DNA of 35,667 bases from Victivallales bacterium (lineage in GTDB: Bacteria; Verrucomicrobiota; Lentisphaeria; Oligosphaerales; Oligosphaeraceae). The translations under genes and the position numbers were made by a program. Below, one piece after another: positions 2,021 through 13,924 of the stretch. Below the pieces are notes generated by a model that was not told where the DNA came from, searched no databases, and was given only the letters and a program-made list of their open reading frames with translations. Every line of letters starts with the position of its first letter. Within the stretch, counting starts at the first letter, position 1. The stretch spans positions 1-35,667 of the forward strand of contig JAFXUD010000068.1 of assembly GCA_017535315.1 (NCBI GenBank), written 5' to 3'.

Positions 2021-2491
2021 TGAAGAAGTCCAGCGCGTCTGTCGTAGCGCCTCGTAAAGGGCGATGGAAACGGAGTTCGCCAGGTTGTGACTACGACAAT
2101 GGATGCCTGGCATCGGGATGGTGCGCAGTCTCTCTTTGTACTGCACGTAAAAGTGCGGCGGGAGGCCGTGCCCTTCATTGCCAAAGATCAGGTAGTCCCC
2201 TTCCTGAAACGAGGTCTCGTAGATGGATTGCTCCGTCTTGGTACTGCAGAAAAACATACGCGTTGGATGGTTGTTCTTCTGCAAGAACTCCTCCCAGTTC
2301 TCATAGACTGTCAGATTCAGGTACTGCCAGTAGTCCATTCCAGCGCGACGCAGATGCGCTTCATCCAACTGGTAACCCAGGGGGCGTATGAGATGGAGCG
2401 CCGCGTCGGCGCAGACGCACAGGCGTCCGATGGTGCCCGTGTTCTGCGGTATCTCTGGCGCCACGAGGACGATGTTAAAGCAGGGAACCAT
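2006..2491 (-). CDS. trmL: tRNA (cytidine/uridine-34-2'-O)-methyltransferase, SPOUT family
   Basis: A 161-residue SPOUT methyltransferase of the TrmL type, predicted to methylate the 2'-oxygen of the wobble base in certain leucine tRNAs using S-adenosylmethionine. The three SPOUT motifs are present: NTGTIGR at 17-23, GNEGHGLP at 104-111, and RSHNLANSVSIALYEA at 133-148, which forms the knotted cofactor site. The length fits the family. Its ATG overlaps the pheS stop by one base (TAATG), so the two are probably translationally coupled. The last residues, VVSD, and the stop codon are encoded by the inverted heptads at 2006-2020, so the original C-terminus seems to have been replaced or extended by repeat DNA. 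The catalytic part is untouched. Confidence 0.9.
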   Translation of the reverse strand: MVPCFNIVLVAPEIPQNTGTIGRLCVCADAALHLIRPLGYQLDEAHLRRAGMDYWQYLNLTVYENWEEFLQKNNHPTRMFFCSTKTEQSIYETSFQEGDYLIFGNEGHGLPPHFYVQYKERLRTIPMPGIHCRSHNLANSVSIALYEALRQTRWTSSVVSD

Positions 2492-3534
2492 TAGAATTGG
2501 TGGAGGAACCTCACATCGTTATCGTAGAGCAAACGAAGGTCGTTGATGGAGTAGCGTATCATCGCAATGCGCTCGATGCCAAGGCCAAACGCGAAACCGC
2601 TCACCTTCTCCGTGTCATATCCCACGTTCTTGAAGACGGCAGGGTTCACCATACCCGCTCCAGCGATTTCAATCCAGCCAGAGCCCTTGCAGACGCGGCA
2701 GCCCGTGCCGCCACAGACGATGCAGCTGGCATCGCACTCGACGCTAGGCTCCGTAAACGGGAAGAAGTGCGGGCGGAAACGTATCTTCGTGTTGGGGCCG
2801 AACATCTCGCGCGAAAAGACTGCCAGCGTCCCTTTCAGGTCCGCCAGGGAGACGTTTTCATCCACGTAGAGCCCTTCAATCTGATGAAAGCTCATGCCAT
2901 GGGTTGCGTCAGGCGTGTCGCGCCTGTAGCAACGCCCTGGGCAAACGATGCGCACGGGGGGCTGCTGCGCCTTCATGGAACGAATCTGCACGGGTGAGGT
3001 CTGCGTGCGGAGAATCATCGTCTCGGGGTCGAGCCAGTGGCGCTTGTCCAAGTCGAAGTAAAAGGTATCCTCGGGGGTGCGGGAAGGATGGTCCTGCGGC
3101 GCGTTCAAAGCGTCGAAGTTGTTCCAGACGTTTTCCAGATCGGGACCGTCCGCAACGATGAAGCCCATGCTGCGGAAGATGGCGACGGCGCGGTCCATCA
3201 CCAGGCTGATGGGGTGCTTGTGGCCGATGGCGTGGTGCCTAGCTGGCAGCGAAATGTCCAGAGCCTCCTGCTCCTCCTTGGATTCCTTGATTTTCGCGGC
3301 GCAAGCGTCAAACGCCTCCTGCACGCTGTTCTTGACGGCGTTCAGGGTCTTGCCGACAGCTGGTTTCTCCTCCTTCGGCACCTTGCCCAACTGGGACATC
3401 AGAGCAGGAAGAAGCCCCTTTCGCCCGAGGAACTTGGCGCGGCACTCCTCCAGTTCACTTTCATTTGTCACAGTTGCAAGGGCTTCCTGGACCTGTTTCT
3501 GGGTCTCCAGTAGTTGAGTTTCCAATTCAGTCAT
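2491..3534 (-). CDS. pheS: Phenylalanine--tRNA ligase alpha subunit
   Basis: A 347-residue class II aminoacyl-tRNA synthetase subunit, which with PheT charges tRNA-Phe. It begins with a coiled-coil tRNA-binding arm (about 1-90). The catalytic core follows: GHKHPI at 104-109, the NNFDALNAPQDHP region at 138-150, motif 2 around 200-212 (GRCYRRDTPDATH), and motif 3 at 313-328. A cysteine cluster (C267, C271, C274, C279, C282) could bind zinc; I recall similar clusters in some bacterial PheS proteins. The usual pheT partner does not follow; trmL does, overlapping the stop by one base. PheT must be encoded elsewhere. The 67-base gap to rlmL contains only a weak 6-bp hairpin. Confidence 0.96.
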   Translation of the reverse strand: MTELETQLLETQKQVQEALATVTNESELEECRAKFLGRKGLLPALMSQLGKVPKEEKPAVGKTLNAVKNSVQEAFDACAAKIKESKEEQEALDISLPARHHAIGHKHPISLVMDRAVAIFRSMGFIVADGPDLENVWNNFDALNAPQDHPSRTPEDTFYFDLDKRHWLDPETMILRTQTSPVQIRSMKAQQPPVRIVCPGRCYRRDTPDATHGMSFHQIEGLYVDENVSLADLKGTLAVFSREMFGPNTKIRFRPHFFPFTEPSVECDASCIVCGGTGCRVCKGSGWIEIAGAGMVNPAVFKNVGYDTEKVSGFAFGLGIERIAMIRYSINDLRLLYDNDVRFLHQF

Positions 3535-7592: not shown

Positions 7593-8612
7593 ATGACATT
7601 ACGTTTTGGATTAGTCGGGTATGGTTATCATGGCAAGGCGGCAGTGACACCATCTTTTTACTTGAAGGATGCTGTCGGCGTAGAGTTGAAGGCCATCTGC
7701 GATGCGAACGCAGATGCAGTCGCCGCCATCGAGCGTCCTGTGGAGAAATACACCTCCGTCGATGAGATGCTGGCGAAAGCCCCAATCGATGCCGTGTATG
7801 TGGCCGTCGGCATGGAATACCACAGCCAGGTGGCCATTGCTGCGCTGAAGGCGGGCAAGCACGTCATCTGCGAGAAGCCCATGGCGCAGACGCTGGATCA
7901 GTGCAAGGAGATGGTGGCGACGGCGAAGGCAAACAACCGCATCCTCGCCATCAACTTCGAGACGCGCTACTCACAGAAAATCCAGCTTGTCAAGCGCTGG
8001 ATAAACGAGAGGCGCTTTGGACGGATTGACGCCATCCACTTCGACAATCTCTGGGACGGGCACAAGAACTTCGGCCCCGTGGCAGAGAGACGTGCACGTC
8101 TGCTCGCTGTCGCGGGCGGACTTGACTGCGGTGTCCACGAACTGGACCAGGCACGCTTCTTCCTCGGCGGCAACTGGACCACCGTACACGCAGTTGGCGC
8201 CTGGTTTGGCGAACCCTTCAACCCGCCGCCCCACATCGGCATCATCGGTGTAATGGACAATGGCCCGATGGTCACCCTGAACGCTTCCCTGGGCTTCGCC
8301 TCCCAGATCGAGCCGCGCCCGATGGTGGACAACCTGGTCGTGGCGGGCAATGAAGGCGTCGCAGTGCTCCGCACGGACGTTCTCGCACACCACACGGTGG
8401 CTGAGCTCTCCAGCAGAACCCTCTGCGAAAAGGTCGAATTCACCACGACTGGCCACGCCAGCGATATCGCCCTGCTCCTCTCCGAAGTGGCCAAGGTCGC
8501 CGCCAATGGTCCTGATACTCCGCATTTCTTTGCAAGTGGCGAGGACGGCTACCAGGCACAGTTCGCCATGGAGCTAGCCAACCGCGAAGCCCAGGAAAAC
8601 CGCGTGAAATAA
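7593..8612 (+). CDS. Gfo/Idh/MocA family NAD(P)-dependent oxidoreductase
   Basis: An oxidoreductase of about 339 residues, of the glucose-fructose oxidoreductase/inositol dehydrogenase family. These enzymes usually oxidise or reduce a sugar or sugar acid in the cytoplasm. The Rossmann motif GLVGYGYHG lies at the N-terminus. The family EKP signature follows at about 94-96. The substrate helix GGLDCGVHELD at about 175-185 carries the expected Asp and His pattern. The frame could start at 7587, but AGGAG (7581-7585) is one base from that ATG and seven from the ATG at 7593, so the second is preferred. A clean terminator follows. The substrate cannot be told from the sequence. The neighbour is a propeller protein of glycosidase type. 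Confidence 0.88.
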   Translation: MTLRFGLVGYGYHGKAAVTPSFYLKDAVGVELKAICDANADAVAAIERPVEKYTSVDEMLAKAPIDAVYVAVGMEYHSQVAIAALKAGKHVICEKPMAQTLDQCKEMVATAKANNRILAINFETRYSQKIQLVKRWINERRFGRIDAIHFDNLWDGHKNFGPVAERRARLLAVAGGLDCGVHELDQARFFLGGNWTTVHAVGAWFGEPFNPPPHIGIIGVMDNGPMVTLNASLGFASQIEPRPMVDNLVVAGNEGVAVLRTDVLAHHTVAELSSRTLCEKVEFTTTGHASDIALLLSEVAKVAANGPDTPHFFASGEDGYQAQFAMELANREAQENRVK

Positions 8613-8651
8613 ACAGCATTCCTTTTTTCACCTGTTCCACTTATAAAGTAA

Positions 8652-8679
8652 GCCCCGACGTTCGGAGAAGCGTCGGGGC
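8652..8679 (+). terminator. Intrinsic terminator after the Gfo/Idh/MocA gene
   Basis: GCCCCGACG (8652-8660) pairs perfectly with CGTCGGGGC (8671-8679) around a 10-base loop. It starts 40 bases after the stop codon. The trailing sequence CTGTATTTTG is only moderately T-rich. Confidence 0.75.
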
Positions 8680-8709
8680 CTGTATTTTGCTCCTAATCTT
8701 AACTTAAAA

Positions 8710-8801
8710 GGGACGGGAGGGACGACAGAGACAGGAGGGACGATAAAAAAGCATTAGGTACTTAGAGCTGTCCCTCTCGTCCCTCCCGTCGCTCCTATCC
8801 C
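8710..8801. repeat. Nonamer repeat array with inverted partner (GGGACGGGA type), copy 1
   Basis: Four direct nonamers in register (GGGACGGGA, GGGACGACA, GAGACAGGA, GGGACGATA; 8710-8745) are followed by a 24-base spacer. Three and a half inverted nonamers then follow (GTCCCTCTC, GTCCCTCCC, GTCGCTCCT, ATCCC; 8770-8801). The layout is direct-spacer-inverted like the heptad arrays, but the sequence and period differ. It lies between convergent genes. A second copy is at the window end (35581). Confidence 0.9.
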
Positions 8802-8829
8802 ATAAGATGTCAATCAGGAGTATTATGGC

Positions 8830-9426
8830 CTACTTCTTTTCCCTCCATTTGTTCTTTTCGCGAAGGAAATCTGTGTCGGTCAGCATCTTGAAACGTTCTT
8901 CAAGGATGGCGTCCTCGTTCTCCTTGAGAGCCTCCAGTTGCTTCGTCATACGCTGAAGCCGCTCAAAATAGTCCTGAAGCATGAAGTCGTAAGCCTCCTT
9001 GATTTTTGAGCGAAGCTGCTCCTCCAGTTTTGCCTTCTCAGCGGCGTCCTTGCAGTCGGAAATGGTACGTGCCAACTCAAAGCACTCCCTGTCAAGCTGC
9101 CCCATACGCCTCATGTTCCCGTTTGGTGTTGGCATGTACTTGCGGATTTCATTGACAAAGGCGCGGATATCGGTCTTGCGCAGATTCTCCAGGCGTTCGT
9201 ACTCCTCTGGATTATCCTTCTTGAGCTTCGACATGATCATCAGAACCTCGTTGCCGCGCCCTGGATTCCAAGCTCCCTTTCGACCATATTCACCTCCTGG
9301 ACCGCGCTGATGCTCCATGCCATTTGGTCCCCTGCCTTCTGGCGGCGGCGGAAAACCTTCCTGAGCAAACACCTGGAACATTAGTGCCGCCAACACGGCC
9401 ATCAGAATTGTGATTCTGCTTTTCAT
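8830..9426 (-). CDS. Secreted helical protein in a sigma/anti-sigma operon
   Basis: A 198-residue protein with a signal peptide (about 1-21, ending VFA|Q). A Pro/Gly-rich segment (22-58) follows, then a long, charged, mostly helical part with Glu/Lys/Arg-rich heptads up to the C-terminus. It is probably periplasmic. It sits 20 bases after an anti-sigma factor gene and shares that operon. This recalls small periplasmic sensor proteins of the Spy/CpxP/CnrX kind, which have similar Met/Arg/Glu-rich helices, but I see no LTxxQ motif. A role as envelope-stress sensor or modulator of the anti-sigma factor is an inference from context. No enzyme motif is visible. Confidence 0.7.
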   Translation of the reverse strand: MKSRITILMAVLAALMFQVFAQEGFPPPPEGRGPNGMEHQRGPGGEYGRKGAWNPGRGNEVLMIMSKLKKDNPEEYERLENLRKTDIRAFVNEIRKYMPTPNGNMRRMGQLDRECFELARTISDCKDAAEKAKLEEQLRSKIKEAYDFMLQDYFERLQRMTKQLEALKENEDAILEERFKMLTDTDFLREKNKWREKK

Positions 9427-10638: not shown

Positions 10639-11898
10639 TTACGCGCGGCGCCACATGCTCGCTACAGCGGCGACAAAAAAAGCAAGACAAGGCAAGGCAC
10701 CGCCCAGGAAAGGCGAAACGCTTCCCAACGGCTGGAACCACCCGTTTTTCACACACAGGACGCCCAGTTCTGTGATAAGATAAAAAAGCAACAGGGAGCC
10801 TACAGCGGAAGCAAAACCATTCATCTGCCCCATTCGATTCGTTGAAATAGTCAGCGCCACTCCAAACAAGGCGCCAATAAGTGCTGCCAGGGGAAAAAGA
10901 CAGCGATAAAGCAGAATAGTCTTCAAAAGGTGCAATTCGCGTTTGGAGGTAACCAGACCACTACAAAGCACTTCCCATAGTTCCGCAATGGTCATGCGTT
11001 CTCTATCGATGCTGTGCGACCTGATGTTTTCAGGCGATTCTGTATAGTTTTTCTCCAGCGTCTCAAAGACTTCCGGGGCCTGCTGCAAAGGATTCCCCTC
11101 CGTGTCATAATGCTTTACAAAGCCATTTTTGAAAACCCATCCCCCGTCATATCTGGCAGACTGTGCAGATAGCAGATATTCGTATGTGCCATCAGAGCGG
11201 TATTGCCTAACAATCACCCCAGTGGACTCTCCCTCCATGTCCAGATTGTCAATCAGCCAATCCCGATGCTCAAGCTCGAAGGCGAACGCCGCACGGGATT
11301 TCGCCTTGCCATGCTTTAGGTATTCCATCTCAATGGCATCTGCTTTCTCCAGGCAGGCAGGTCCCCAGGATTCGTTGATGGCAAACACCACGACGCACGA
11401 CACCCCAGCAATGAGCCAGACTGGAATGCAACAGGTAAAAAGGGACATTCCTGCGGCACGCAGAGCCGTCAACTCGCTGTTTTTGCCCAGCATCATGGTC
11501 ATAAAGCTGGCAGCCAGCAGGCTGGCAAATGGAATCACGTATGTGAGATTTTGGGGTTGCTTGGCAAGCAGGAACGTTATGATGACAGACCAGGGGATGA
11601 GCGGTCTTGCCGTCTTTTCCGTCGCAGAATGTCCTTTGTTATCGGCATTTTCGCCTGCATTGTCTCCTTCTGGTCGAAGAGCCTTTTCCCCATGTGTGGT
11701 TGCCAAGGCGGCCTGCTCCTGTTTTATCTTGGTATTTTCCTCCAGAAAATCCCTCATGTCGCCATTGATGGAATCCACCAGCATGAACAATGCCATGAAG
11801 CCGATGATGGCACCAACATACGGCATCGCGAAGTTCCTTGCGATGTAAGCCAGAACACAGGGGGAGATGCGTCTGGATATGGATGATTTCTGGGGCAT
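10639..11898 (-). CDS. LptF/LptG family permease
   Basis: A 419-residue inner-membrane protein of the YjgP/YjgQ family. LptF and LptG with the ATPase LptB extract lipopolysaccharide from the inner membrane and pass it to the LptC-LptA bridge. One N-terminal span (about 25-45) is followed by a charged insert rich in Glu, Lys and Asn (about 50-98). Two spans then precede a large beta-rich periplasmic region (about 185-320), and three C-terminal spans close the protein. It begins 12 bases after the RDD gene. No clear Shine-Dalgarno sequence is seen, so it is probably reached by coupling. The charged insert between the first spans is not typical of E. coli LptF/LptG. LptF and LptG cannot be told apart here. 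Confidence 0.85.
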   Translation of the reverse strand: MPQKSSISRRISPCVLAYIARNFAMPYVGAIIGFMALFMLVDSINGDMRDFLEENTKIKQEQAALATTHGEKALRPEGDNAGENADNKGHSATEKTARPLIPWSVIITFLLAKQPQNLTYVIPFASLLAASFMTMMLGKNSELTALRAAGMSLFTCCIPVWLIAGVSCVVVFAINESWGPACLEKADAIEMEYLKHGKAKSRAAFAFELEHRDWLIDNLDMEGESTGVIVRQYRSDGTYEYLLSAQSARYDGGWVFKNGFVKHYDTEGNPLQQAPEVFETLEKNYTESPENIRSHSIDRERMTIAELWEVLCSGLVTSKRELHLLKTILLYRCLFPLAALIGALFGVALTISTNRMGQMNGFASAVGSLLLFYLITELGVLCVKNGWFQPLGSVSPFLGGALPCLAFFVAAVASMWRRA

Positions 11899-11910
11899 TT
11901 CAAATAATGG

Positions 11911-12657
11911 CTAAACGGGATTCTTGATCTTGTTCGGGTCGATGACGATTCGCGTCATACGGGTTTTGGTGAAAAGTTCCTGTACTGTCTTCCCGCTAGC
12001 AAACAAGAAAAGCGGATTCAAGATCCCCAGCGCAAACAAAAAGAACACATAGAAGAAGATGCGTCCGAGCCAGTAGGATTCGCCGTTTGTCCGCACCAGG
12101 TATATCCCCCAGAAACGCTGTCCAGGCGTCTGTTGATTCAAATACATGGTGAAGATGAAATAGAGGAAGAAAGTCAGGAAATAGACAGGGAAAGCTATGT
12201 AGAAAAGATAATATGGGTCGATGATATCGTGCTTGTAGCAGAAGGCGCAAATCAGATGAAGAATGACACCCCAGACAAACATGATCAGAAGGTCTGTCAG
12301 CAATGCCATGCACCGCATGATTATGCTGGCAGTCGGAGCGGTGGCAGCGTTGCGTTTGACTAGGCCATTGGTGGCGTTTCCGCTTACATCCTCAACCTTG
12401 AGGTTGATTCTGGCCTTGATGCGTTCCCAAGGCGTATTATGCTGGGCGTTGACACGCGCCACGACCTGCTCTTTGAGAAGCGGCTTGAGAAACGGAATGT
12501 CCAGGACATTGTCCCACTTGTTCACAAGCGTGCTACGGATTTTGCAGTCAAGGTCGATTTTCCCTGTCTCTGCCCATTTAACCAGAGTCTGCTGGTCTGC
12601 GGGTTCAAACTCCTCCCCTTGCGCGTTACGAACGATGAAAAGGCGTTCATTTGCCAT
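11911..12657 (-). CDS. RDD family membrane protein with N-terminal GYF_2-like domain
   Basis: A 248-residue protein. The first 60 residues resemble the GYF_2 domain found fused to bacterial membrane proteins: a start of the form 'ERLFIVRNAQGEEFEPADQQ' with a conserved Trp and a short helix. The RDD domain follows (about 100-245). It has Arg and Asp in the first span region (MRCMALLTDLLIM), a QTPGQRFWGI motif between spans, and about four membrane segments. RDD proteins are of poorly known function; some act in ion or sodium transport. A GGAG sequence eight bases before the ATG supports the start. The gene heads the minus-strand cluster that continues into the LptF/LptG-type gene. Confidence 0.82.
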   Translation of the reverse strand: MANERLFIVRNAQGEEFEPADQQTLVKWAETGKIDLDCKIRSTLVNKWDNVLDIPFLKPLLKEQVVARVNAQHNTPWERIKARINLKVEDVSGNATNGLVKRNAATAPTASIIMRCMALLTDLLIMFVWGVILHLICAFCYKHDIIDPYYLFYIAFPVYFLTFFLYFIFTMYLNQQTPGQRFWGIYLVRTNGESYWLGRIFFYVFFLFALGILNPLFLFASGKTVQELFTKTRMTRIVIDPNKIKNPV

Positions 12658-12736: not shown

Positions 12737-12816
12737 AATGCTTTTAGGGGATTTTTCATCTCCTGTTTTCAGATTATTTCATAAAAAGGACAACATATAG
12801 AAAGGAGAGACGACAA

Positions 12817-13206
12817 ATGGCAGAAGAGAAGGACACACGCTCTTTTTCCAAAAGGCATCTATGGGCCAAGGTTGATGAACAAAAGGGGATTGCCTACATA
12901 GGAATAACAGACTACCTGGCTGAACAGTTGGCCGAAATCGGCAGCATTGACATGCCTGAACCAGGCGATGAGGTCGATATGGACAATATGTGCATCCACC
13001 TCTACCTTCGCAACAGAATACACCACCTGCGCTCCCCGCTGTCGGGACGTGTGATCGAATGCAACAAGGAAGTGCTGGACAACTGCAGCCTGCTCCATCT
13101 GGATCCAAACAAATATTGGCTCTACAGCATGGAATACGATAATCTGGAAGAGCTTGATCTTCTAATGGATGCACGCCAGTATGCGGAGTACGTTGACAAA
13201 CTTTGA
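12817..13206 (+). CDS. GcvH-like protein lacking the lipoyl-lysine
   Basis: A 129-residue protein with the fold and spacing of glycine cleavage H protein: HLWAKVDEQKGIAYIGITDYLAEQ at the start and SPLSGRVIECNKEVLDN at 73-89. In true GcvH the lipoylated lysine sits seven residues before the S/A-P-V-S-G turn. Here that place is Asn66, flanked by Arg65 and Arg67, and no lysine lies in the hairpin. The protein therefore cannot carry lipoate in the normal way. It ends with an acidic tail containing WLYSMEYDNLEELDLLMDA, unlike the usual end. No gcvT or gcvP is nearby; pyrF follows after 37 bases. It has a strong ribosome site (AGGAGA). Its role is unknown; a binding or scaffolding protein derived from GcvH is the simplest idea. 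Confidence 0.8.
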   Translation: MAEEKDTRSFSKRHLWAKVDEQKGIAYIGITDYLAEQLAEIGSIDMPEPGDEVDMDNMCIHLYLRNRIHHLRSPLSGRVIECNKEVLDNCSLLHLDPNKYWLYSMEYDNLEELDLLMDARQYAEYVDKL

Positions 13207-13243: not shown

Positions 13244-13924
13244 ATGACTGAACTCATTACCGCATTAGATTATCCAGATGCCAAAAGCGCACTGGAAACC
13301 GTTGACCGCATTGGCATCTCCTGCCTATGGTATAAAGTCGGAAAGGAGCTTTTCACCGCTGTCGGCCCCATGATCGTGCAAGAGCTTAAGGCGCGCGGAA
13401 AGAAGGTCTTCCTTGATATGAAATACCACGATATTCCCAACACCGTCTCCAAGGCCGTCCATTCCGCAGCAGGCATTGGCGCAGACCTGTGCAATGTCCA
13501 TGCATCAGGAGGAACAGCCATGCTCAAGGCTGCGGCTACAGCGGCAAAGGAATCTGGCATTCTCCTCGTGGCTGTCACCGTTTTGACAAGCATGGACGCG
13601 ATGGAGCTAGCCTCCATCGGTCTGAATGTCTCTCCTCAGGAACAGGTACAACGGCTTGCCCTCCTGACACAAACCTGCGGTGTCCCAGGCGTTGTATGCT
13701 CGGCACTTGAACTGCCAGTCATACGCAAATCCTGCGGAAATGATTTCATCACAGTCGTCCCTGGCATTCGCCCTGCTGGGTCGTCAGCAGATGACCAGAA
13801 GAGAATCATGACGCCAGAACAGGCAGCGCAGGCTGGTGCAAACTACATCGTCGTCGGACGCCCCATTACCAAGGCAGATAATCCCGCCGAGGCCGCAGCT
13901 CAAATAGCCGCTTCCCTGAAGTAA
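13244..13924 (+). CDS. pyrF: Orotidine 5'-phosphate decarboxylase
   Basis: A 226-residue enzyme that decarboxylates OMP to UMP, the last step of pyrimidine synthesis, in the cytoplasm. The catalytic DxKxxD motif is intact (D58, K60, D63 in FLDMKYHDIPNT). D9 of the first strand (ALDYPD) and K31 are also present. The phosphate-binding end VPGIRPAG...VVGRPIT is clear. The length is normal for the bacterial short form. AAGGAAAA precedes the ATG. It probably shares a transcript with the GcvH-like gene. A hairpin follows as terminator. Confidence 0.96.
   Translation: MTELITALDYPDAKSALETVDRIGISCLWYKVGKELFTAVGPMIVQELKARGKKVFLDMKYHDIPNTVSKAVHSAAGIGADLCNVHASGGTAMLKAAATAAKESGILLVAVTVLTSMDAMELASIGLNVSPQEQVQRLALLTQTCGVPGVVCSALELPVIRKSCGNDFITVVPGIRPAGSSADDQKRIMTPEQAAQAGANYIVVGRPITKADNPAEAAAQIAASLK

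Follow-up and report, generated by a model that had tools for sequence, protein, structure and literature searches.

A GcvH-like protein clade without the lipoylation site, encoded next to pyrF in Lentisphaeria and possibly coupled to an undescribed membrane protein family

The window analysed here, the whole stretch of 35,667 nucleotides of contig JAFXUD010000068.1 (Victivallales bacterium, assembly GCA_017535315.1), encodes a protein resembling the H-protein of glycine cleavage, in which asparagine occupies the position of the lipoyl-lysine. The locus raises the question of whether an H-protein can persist without its cofactor site and, if so, in which role. The initial annotation had proposed a stand-alone gene with a new function, for example the binding of another protein or of nucleic acid through an arginine-rich hairpin. 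The features of the locus are as follows (positions in the window).

10639..11898, minus strand: LptF/LptG-type permease, next conserved neighbour (Pfam LptF_LptG, 150.9 bits)
11911..12657, minus strand: RDD-domain membrane protein, divergent upstream neighbour (Pfam RDD, 41.2 bits)
12803..12807, plus strand: AGGAG, likely ribosome-binding site as judged from the sequence, nine bases 5' of the ATG
12817..13206, plus strand: lipoate-free GcvH-like protein, 129 aa (open reading frame with ATG start, Pfam GCV_H)
12988..13032, plus strand: hairpin (residues 58-72) that bears the lipoyl-lysine in true H-proteins (AlphaFold2 strands, gapless alignment)
13003..13005, plus strand: codon 63, Tyr in the window protein (motif count)
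13012..13014, plus strand: codon 66, AAC (Asn), the lipoyl-lysine position (alignment, motif count)
13244..13924, plus strand: pyrF, orotidine 5'-phosphate decarboxylase (Pfam OMPdecase, 225.6 bits)

The window protein passed the gathering cut-off of Pfam GCV_H (PF01597; 77.1 bits vs. 22.2) and missed those of the gcvH equivalog TIGR00527 (64.7 vs. 115.85) and of PRK01202 (79.3 vs. 117). Structure prediction with AlphaFold2, for which an alignment of 37 sequences was the input, gave a model with pLDDT 91 that superposed on the bovine H-protein 3klr over 122 residues (Z 21.0, rmsd 1.4) and matched the lipoylated Escherichia coli H-protein 3ab9 with Z 20.6. In a fold search, the model retrieved H-proteins, then GcvH-L (Z 15.2), the next row reaching only Z 7.0. 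The predicted hairpin consists of strands 58-64 and 68-72 joined by a turn at residues 65-67, and the alignment with the Thermotoga H-protein 2ka7 is gapless throughout this element, the lysine of its ESVK motif aligning with N66. The window motif reads Y63 L64 R65 N66 R67, so that E63 is replaced by Tyr, S64 by Leu and A67 by Arg. The window protein is therefore confirmed to adopt the H-protein fold and to lack the lipoylation site; both the retained fold and the asparagine flanked by two arginines, as originally claimed, were borne out. The protein is like GcvH (TIGR00527, PRK01202) in length, barrel-sandwich hybrid fold, hairpin and P-L-S/T-G turn with G77, and shows 23-30% identity and Z 17-21 with solved H-proteins. 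Unlike GcvH, it lacks the lipoyl-lysine and the E-S-x-K-A motif, falls under the curated cut-offs, and occurs in a genome in which neither GcvP over its cut-off nor GcvT was found.

Orthologues were detected in 42 of the 47 genomes of the window's order, which includes Oligosphaera ethanolica; the remaining genomes (G025, G028, G032, G042 and G044; G, L and C numbers are labels of this study for genomes, loci and contigs) are drafts that are 68-88% complete. Outside the order, four more genomes of the class carry the family, namely G047 (130 bits) and G060-G062 (110-121 bits). The class/phylum scans drew on 197/387 genomes, sequence-level inspection covered L096-L099 and the next-best L100-L102 and L107-L110, and the contig scan used one peptide pattern, so distant members may be missed. 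In a tree of 73 sequences, a branch with 100/100 support separates 43 lipoate-free rows (39 from alignment A1 and the four L096-L099, the partial sequences L033, L045 and L046 being excluded) from 30 lysine-bearing or other non-clade rows chosen from many more; the stem is long, at 1.19 changes per site. One of the non-clade rows, C_L069, has no lysine and does not belong to the clade; it is part of the tree but not of the 29 rows in the motif count below. Locus L069 of genome G046 (2114-2779, minus strand) encodes a GcvH-like protein of a second kind, likewise lacking the lipoyl-lysine; it has 221 aa and an N-terminal hydrophobic stretch, and by eye its neighbours are a 4Fe-4S protein and a membrane protein resembling NrfD.

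Comparison of the two groups showed that the whole E-S-x-K-A lipoylation motif is replaced in the clade. The lysine-bearing H-proteins have E63, S64 and K66 in 29/29 rows and A67 in 28/29. In the 43 clade rows, position 63 is His in 40, Tyr in the window protein and in G033, and Gln in G060; position 66 is mostly Asn (13), Ser (8), Lys (7) or Thr (7), with some other residues. Glu63 is absent everywhere in the clade; position 66 is variable and is lysine in seven members. These include the nearest relative of the window protein, G033, from the same genus, which is 92% identical and has the tip SKR. The best reading is that lipoylation was given up once, early in this Lentisphaerota lineage, giving rise to a lineage-specific paralogue family.

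The presence of K66 in 7/43 members, the nearest relative among them, raises the alternative that these proteins still carry a lipoyl or octanoyl group, through K66 where present or through another lysine. We regard this as highly improbable, since the remaining 36 members have other residues at position 66, none of the seven has Glu63, and the length of the hairpin tip differs by one residue in L136, L144 and L149. Moreover, the columns that are invariant or nearly so in the clade, among them D51, E52, C59, R78, D88, E106 and D108, contain no lysine.

Strong purifying selection acts on the clade. In a list of seven hand-picked pairs of close relatives plus the window pair, dN/dS ranged from 0.014 to 0.142 in 7/7 scorable close pairs; the comparison of the window gene with that of G033 gave pN 0.04 and pS 0.75, with dS saturated. 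A pseudogene or decayed gene is ruled out by these dN/dS values. A sequencing error at codon 66 was likewise discarded, because the adjacent motif positions are changed too, throughout the clade; a horizontally acquired or contaminant gene was dismissed, as the gene is found across the order with conserved neighbours.

The variability of the hairpin tip also bears on the proposed binding of nucleic acid, for which R65 and R67 flanking N66 in the window protein had been the argument. The RNR tip is not conserved: the search for homologues with the same hairpin found position 65 to be Pro (9), Ala (7), Gly (7) or Ser (5) in most of the clade rows, and R67 in 23/43. The proteins are, in addition, acidic throughout, with pI 4.69 and a net charge of -12 in the window protein and a pI between 4.3 and 5.3 across the 35 further clade rows in alignment A2. 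Nucleic-acid binding through this hairpin can accordingly hardly be entertained.

Another alternative is that residues on the hairpin strands have replaced the lipoate chemistry and that C59, H61, H63 and H70 bind a small ligand or a metal. These residues occur in 39/43, 33/43, 40/43 and 32/43 clade members, respectively, whereas only 4/29 lysine-bearing rows have C59, and H61, H63 and H70 are not among their common residues; in the AlphaFold2 model, C59, H61 and H63 alternate along one strand. However, the window protein itself has Tyr63, about one quarter of the clade lacks H61 and H70, and positions 61 and 70 are not kept in distant members, so that a site of this kind appears unlikely.

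The genomic complement of glycine cleavage and lipoate genes was considered in relation to a further possibility, namely that the protein regulates lipoate or glycine metabolism or acts in it as a decoy: it would bind partners of the H-protein (lipoate ligase, octanoyltransferase, P- or T-protein), itself remaining unmodified, and compete with or recruit them. The H-protein fold (Z ~21) would suit such a role, as would the presence in the window genome of two further H-proteins, on contigs C21 and C9, both with the lysine in an ES(T/N)K motif, and of two proteins of the LplA/LipB type (lipoate ligase/transferase-like). The expectation that a true gcvH might exist elsewhere in the genome was thereby met by two lysine-bearing copies. 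Against a decoy, no GCV_T match was found in this genome (95.6% complete), and its sole GDC-P match scored 22.7 bits, under the cut-off of 26. GcvP over the cut-off was found in 26 of the 47 order genomes, and the 42 genomes with the lipoate-free protein divide into 24 with it and 18 without it; its occurrence therefore does not track that of glycine cleavage. As originally stated, no glycine-cleavage gene lies near 12817-13206, and no lipoate gene was seen adjoining the GcvH-like gene in the loci examined. The glutamate three residues before the lipoyl-lysine is important for lipoylation, as mutagenesis has shown, and it is the residue replaced throughout the clade. We consider a decoy function to have a low probability. 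At locus L161 (G000:C21; 808-2733 and 7383-7751), a lysine-bearing GcvH lies ~4.6 kb from open reading frames that by eye resemble dehydrogenase E1 alpha/beta.

Among known relatives of the H-protein is LbpA, the lipoate-binding protein of the sHdr sulfur-oxidation system, whose lipoyl-lysine is strictly conserved and which for the most part has two conserved cysteines close to its termini (PMC6067878). Like LbpA, the window protein is GcvH-like, has a probable role outside glycine cleavage and belongs to a gene cluster of its own; unlike LbpA, it lacks the strict lipoyl-lysine (N66 here, K66 in 7/43) and the terminal cysteine pair, its only cysteines being C59, C82 and C90. Two further models, TIGR03077 ('not_gcvH') and NF045810 (GcvH_rel_desulf), describe H-like proteins that NCBI separates from GcvH, and the window protein stayed below the cut-off of each (27.6 vs. 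144.05 and 34.4 vs. 150, respectively). We take TIGR03077 to be the Chlamydia type. Simiate/Abitram (FAM206A) is not known to have the lipoyl-lysine. This eukaryotic protein is thought to be derived from the H-protein and to have another role, is ~20% identical to it and is reported absent from bacteria (PMC3859600); H-protein descent and a new role liken it to the window protein by description. Lipoate assembly and GcvH are covered in PMC10332631, and the literature search for GcvH-like proteins without the lysine, at the level of search listings, returned no match recognised as this clade.

The gene neighbourhood gives a different picture from the stand-alone gene first assumed. The GcvH-like gene ends 37 bases before pyrF in the window, and in relatives it heads a conserved unit formed by the GcvH-like gene, a gene for a membrane protein that we call MID, and pyrF. 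A pyrF gene on the same strand was found downstream in 38 of the 41 loci from relatives, the remaining three being cut off by the contig end, and in 39/39 testable members of the order, window included. Upstream, the RDD protein, which in relatives has a GYF_2-like N-terminus, had a blastp match in at least 24/41 relatives' loci, and so did the LptF/LptG neighbour; both counts are lower bounds, because the loci mostly had only ~1.5 kb of flank.

The MID gene, of ~210-310 codons, lies between the GcvH-like gene and pyrF in most relatives, and in 19 of 37 loci (L046 excluded) the two frames overlap, the stop codon of the former sharing 4 or 1 bases with the start of MID. In O. ethanolica, the GcvH-like gene is located at 8001-8387 of L120 and MID at 8387-9094. 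MID was found in 40 of the 47 order genomes, in 39 of them beside the GcvH-like gene, whereas in the 40th (G044) MID lies ~200 bases from a contig end. The search of these 47 genomes did not detect it in the three genomes of the window's genus or in G002, G025, G028 and G042, and no copy was found elsewhere in the window genome at E 0.01; G025, G028 and G042 have neither MID nor an orthologue of the window gene. The model of MID (pLDDT 85.7) is that of a predicted helical membrane protein, in which we read six membrane helices, and a P-F-x-x-W motif is invariant. No Pfam family exceeded its own cut-off in 26 MID members. Comparison with solved sequences gave weak partial matches only (best E 0.1, to helices of cytochrome oxidase subunit 2), and the fold search returned only helical-bundle resemblances, the best of them (Z 10.2) to a designed protein.

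Elsewhere in the class, other families have MID but not the GcvH-like gene, and PyrF is present in 10 of 14 such loci examined; by eye, RDD/GYF_2 and LptF/G-like genes are often divergently upstream of MID there too. In L170, L173, L174, L177, L178, L179 and L181, MID is directly followed by pyrF with the GcvH-like gene absent, and in three genomes (L171, L175 and L180) the two are separated by a gene for a protein of 605-669 aa that looks repeat-like by eye. MID and pyrF form an undescribed conserved unit of the class. As MID occurs with PyrF and without the GcvH-like gene in other families, this unit looks older, the GcvH-like gene having joined its head in the window's order. Outside the order, the GcvH-like gene and MID are adjacent in G047, with no PyrF match within the 11-kb locus, and in G060-G062, from another family, the GcvH-like gene lies apart from both MID and pyrF.

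These arrangements are relevant to the alternative that the protein is a partner or regulator of PyrF in UMP synthesis. Proximity favours it, with pyrF downstream in 38/38 testable relatives' loci and 37 bases away in the window. Nevertheless, in other families PyrF adjoins MID where no GcvH-like gene is present, and the GcvH-like gene is away from pyrF in G047 and G060-G062; the link between the two looks inherited from the older MID-pyrF unit, and a PyrF partner is rather improbable. Co-evolution estimated from distance matrices is equally high for both candidates (partial r 0.64 with MID and 0.66 with PyrF): 0/1000 permutations reached the MID value, and MID is not singled out from PyrF. 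Residue 63 is His in 37/37 rows where MID adjoins and in 3/6 where it does not, although the row-wise Fisher p of 0.0016 overstates the case because the rows are related and represent about two independent changes.

We tentatively favour, with somewhat less than even confidence, a non-catalytic module for protein binding, which most likely serves MID as a partner or peripheral subunit in the cytosol, with H63 as part of the contact surface. An H-protein paralogue would have lost lipoylation and then been kept for protein binding, as the retained fold, the new conserved surface and the lack of a cofactor site suggest. The GcvH-like protein would reside in the cytosol as partner or peripheral subunit of the co-encoded MID, to which adjacency, overlapping frames and the distribution of His63 (37/37 vs. 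3/6) point, and the contact surface would be the former lipoyl hairpin with its new H63 together with the conserved D51, E52, R78, E106 and D108. Against this coupling, MID must be dispensable in places, as it is absent from the window's genus and from G002 and is not beside the gene in G060-G062, and it also adjoins pyrF in families that have no GcvH-like gene. In the window's genus, where MID would have been lost and only the coupling to pyrF remains, the protein would act without MID or with another partner. What the data establish is the fold, the absence of the site, the single clade, the selection and the gene neighbourhood; protein binding, MID as partner, the cytosolic side and the role of H63 are inferred. 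A narrower version, in which the protein is a cytosolic subunit or regulator of the undescribed MID family and the hairpin with its near-invariant His63 is a docking or active element, is possible but doubtful. Of the roles first put forward, a non-carrier function is thus the natural reading, and protein binding, probably with MID, is likelier than nucleic-acid binding, which did not hold.

LbpA and other non-canonical H-protein relatives retain lipoate, whereas this clade has dropped the cofactor site. The complete loss of the site in a fold that strong selection preserves points to a use of the H-protein scaffold apart from swinging-arm chemistry, and to an old carrier protein that has taken on a new role. 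Annotation by Pfam only would label the window protein as a glycine-cleavage H-protein, despite no GcvP or GcvT having been found. MID, an orphan membrane protein family present in several families of the class, gains a candidate partner from the conserved pair, and the H63 pattern provides a prediction at the level of a single residue. If the proposed coupling is true, Lentisphaerota would have a membrane system based on an H-protein that carries no lipoate.
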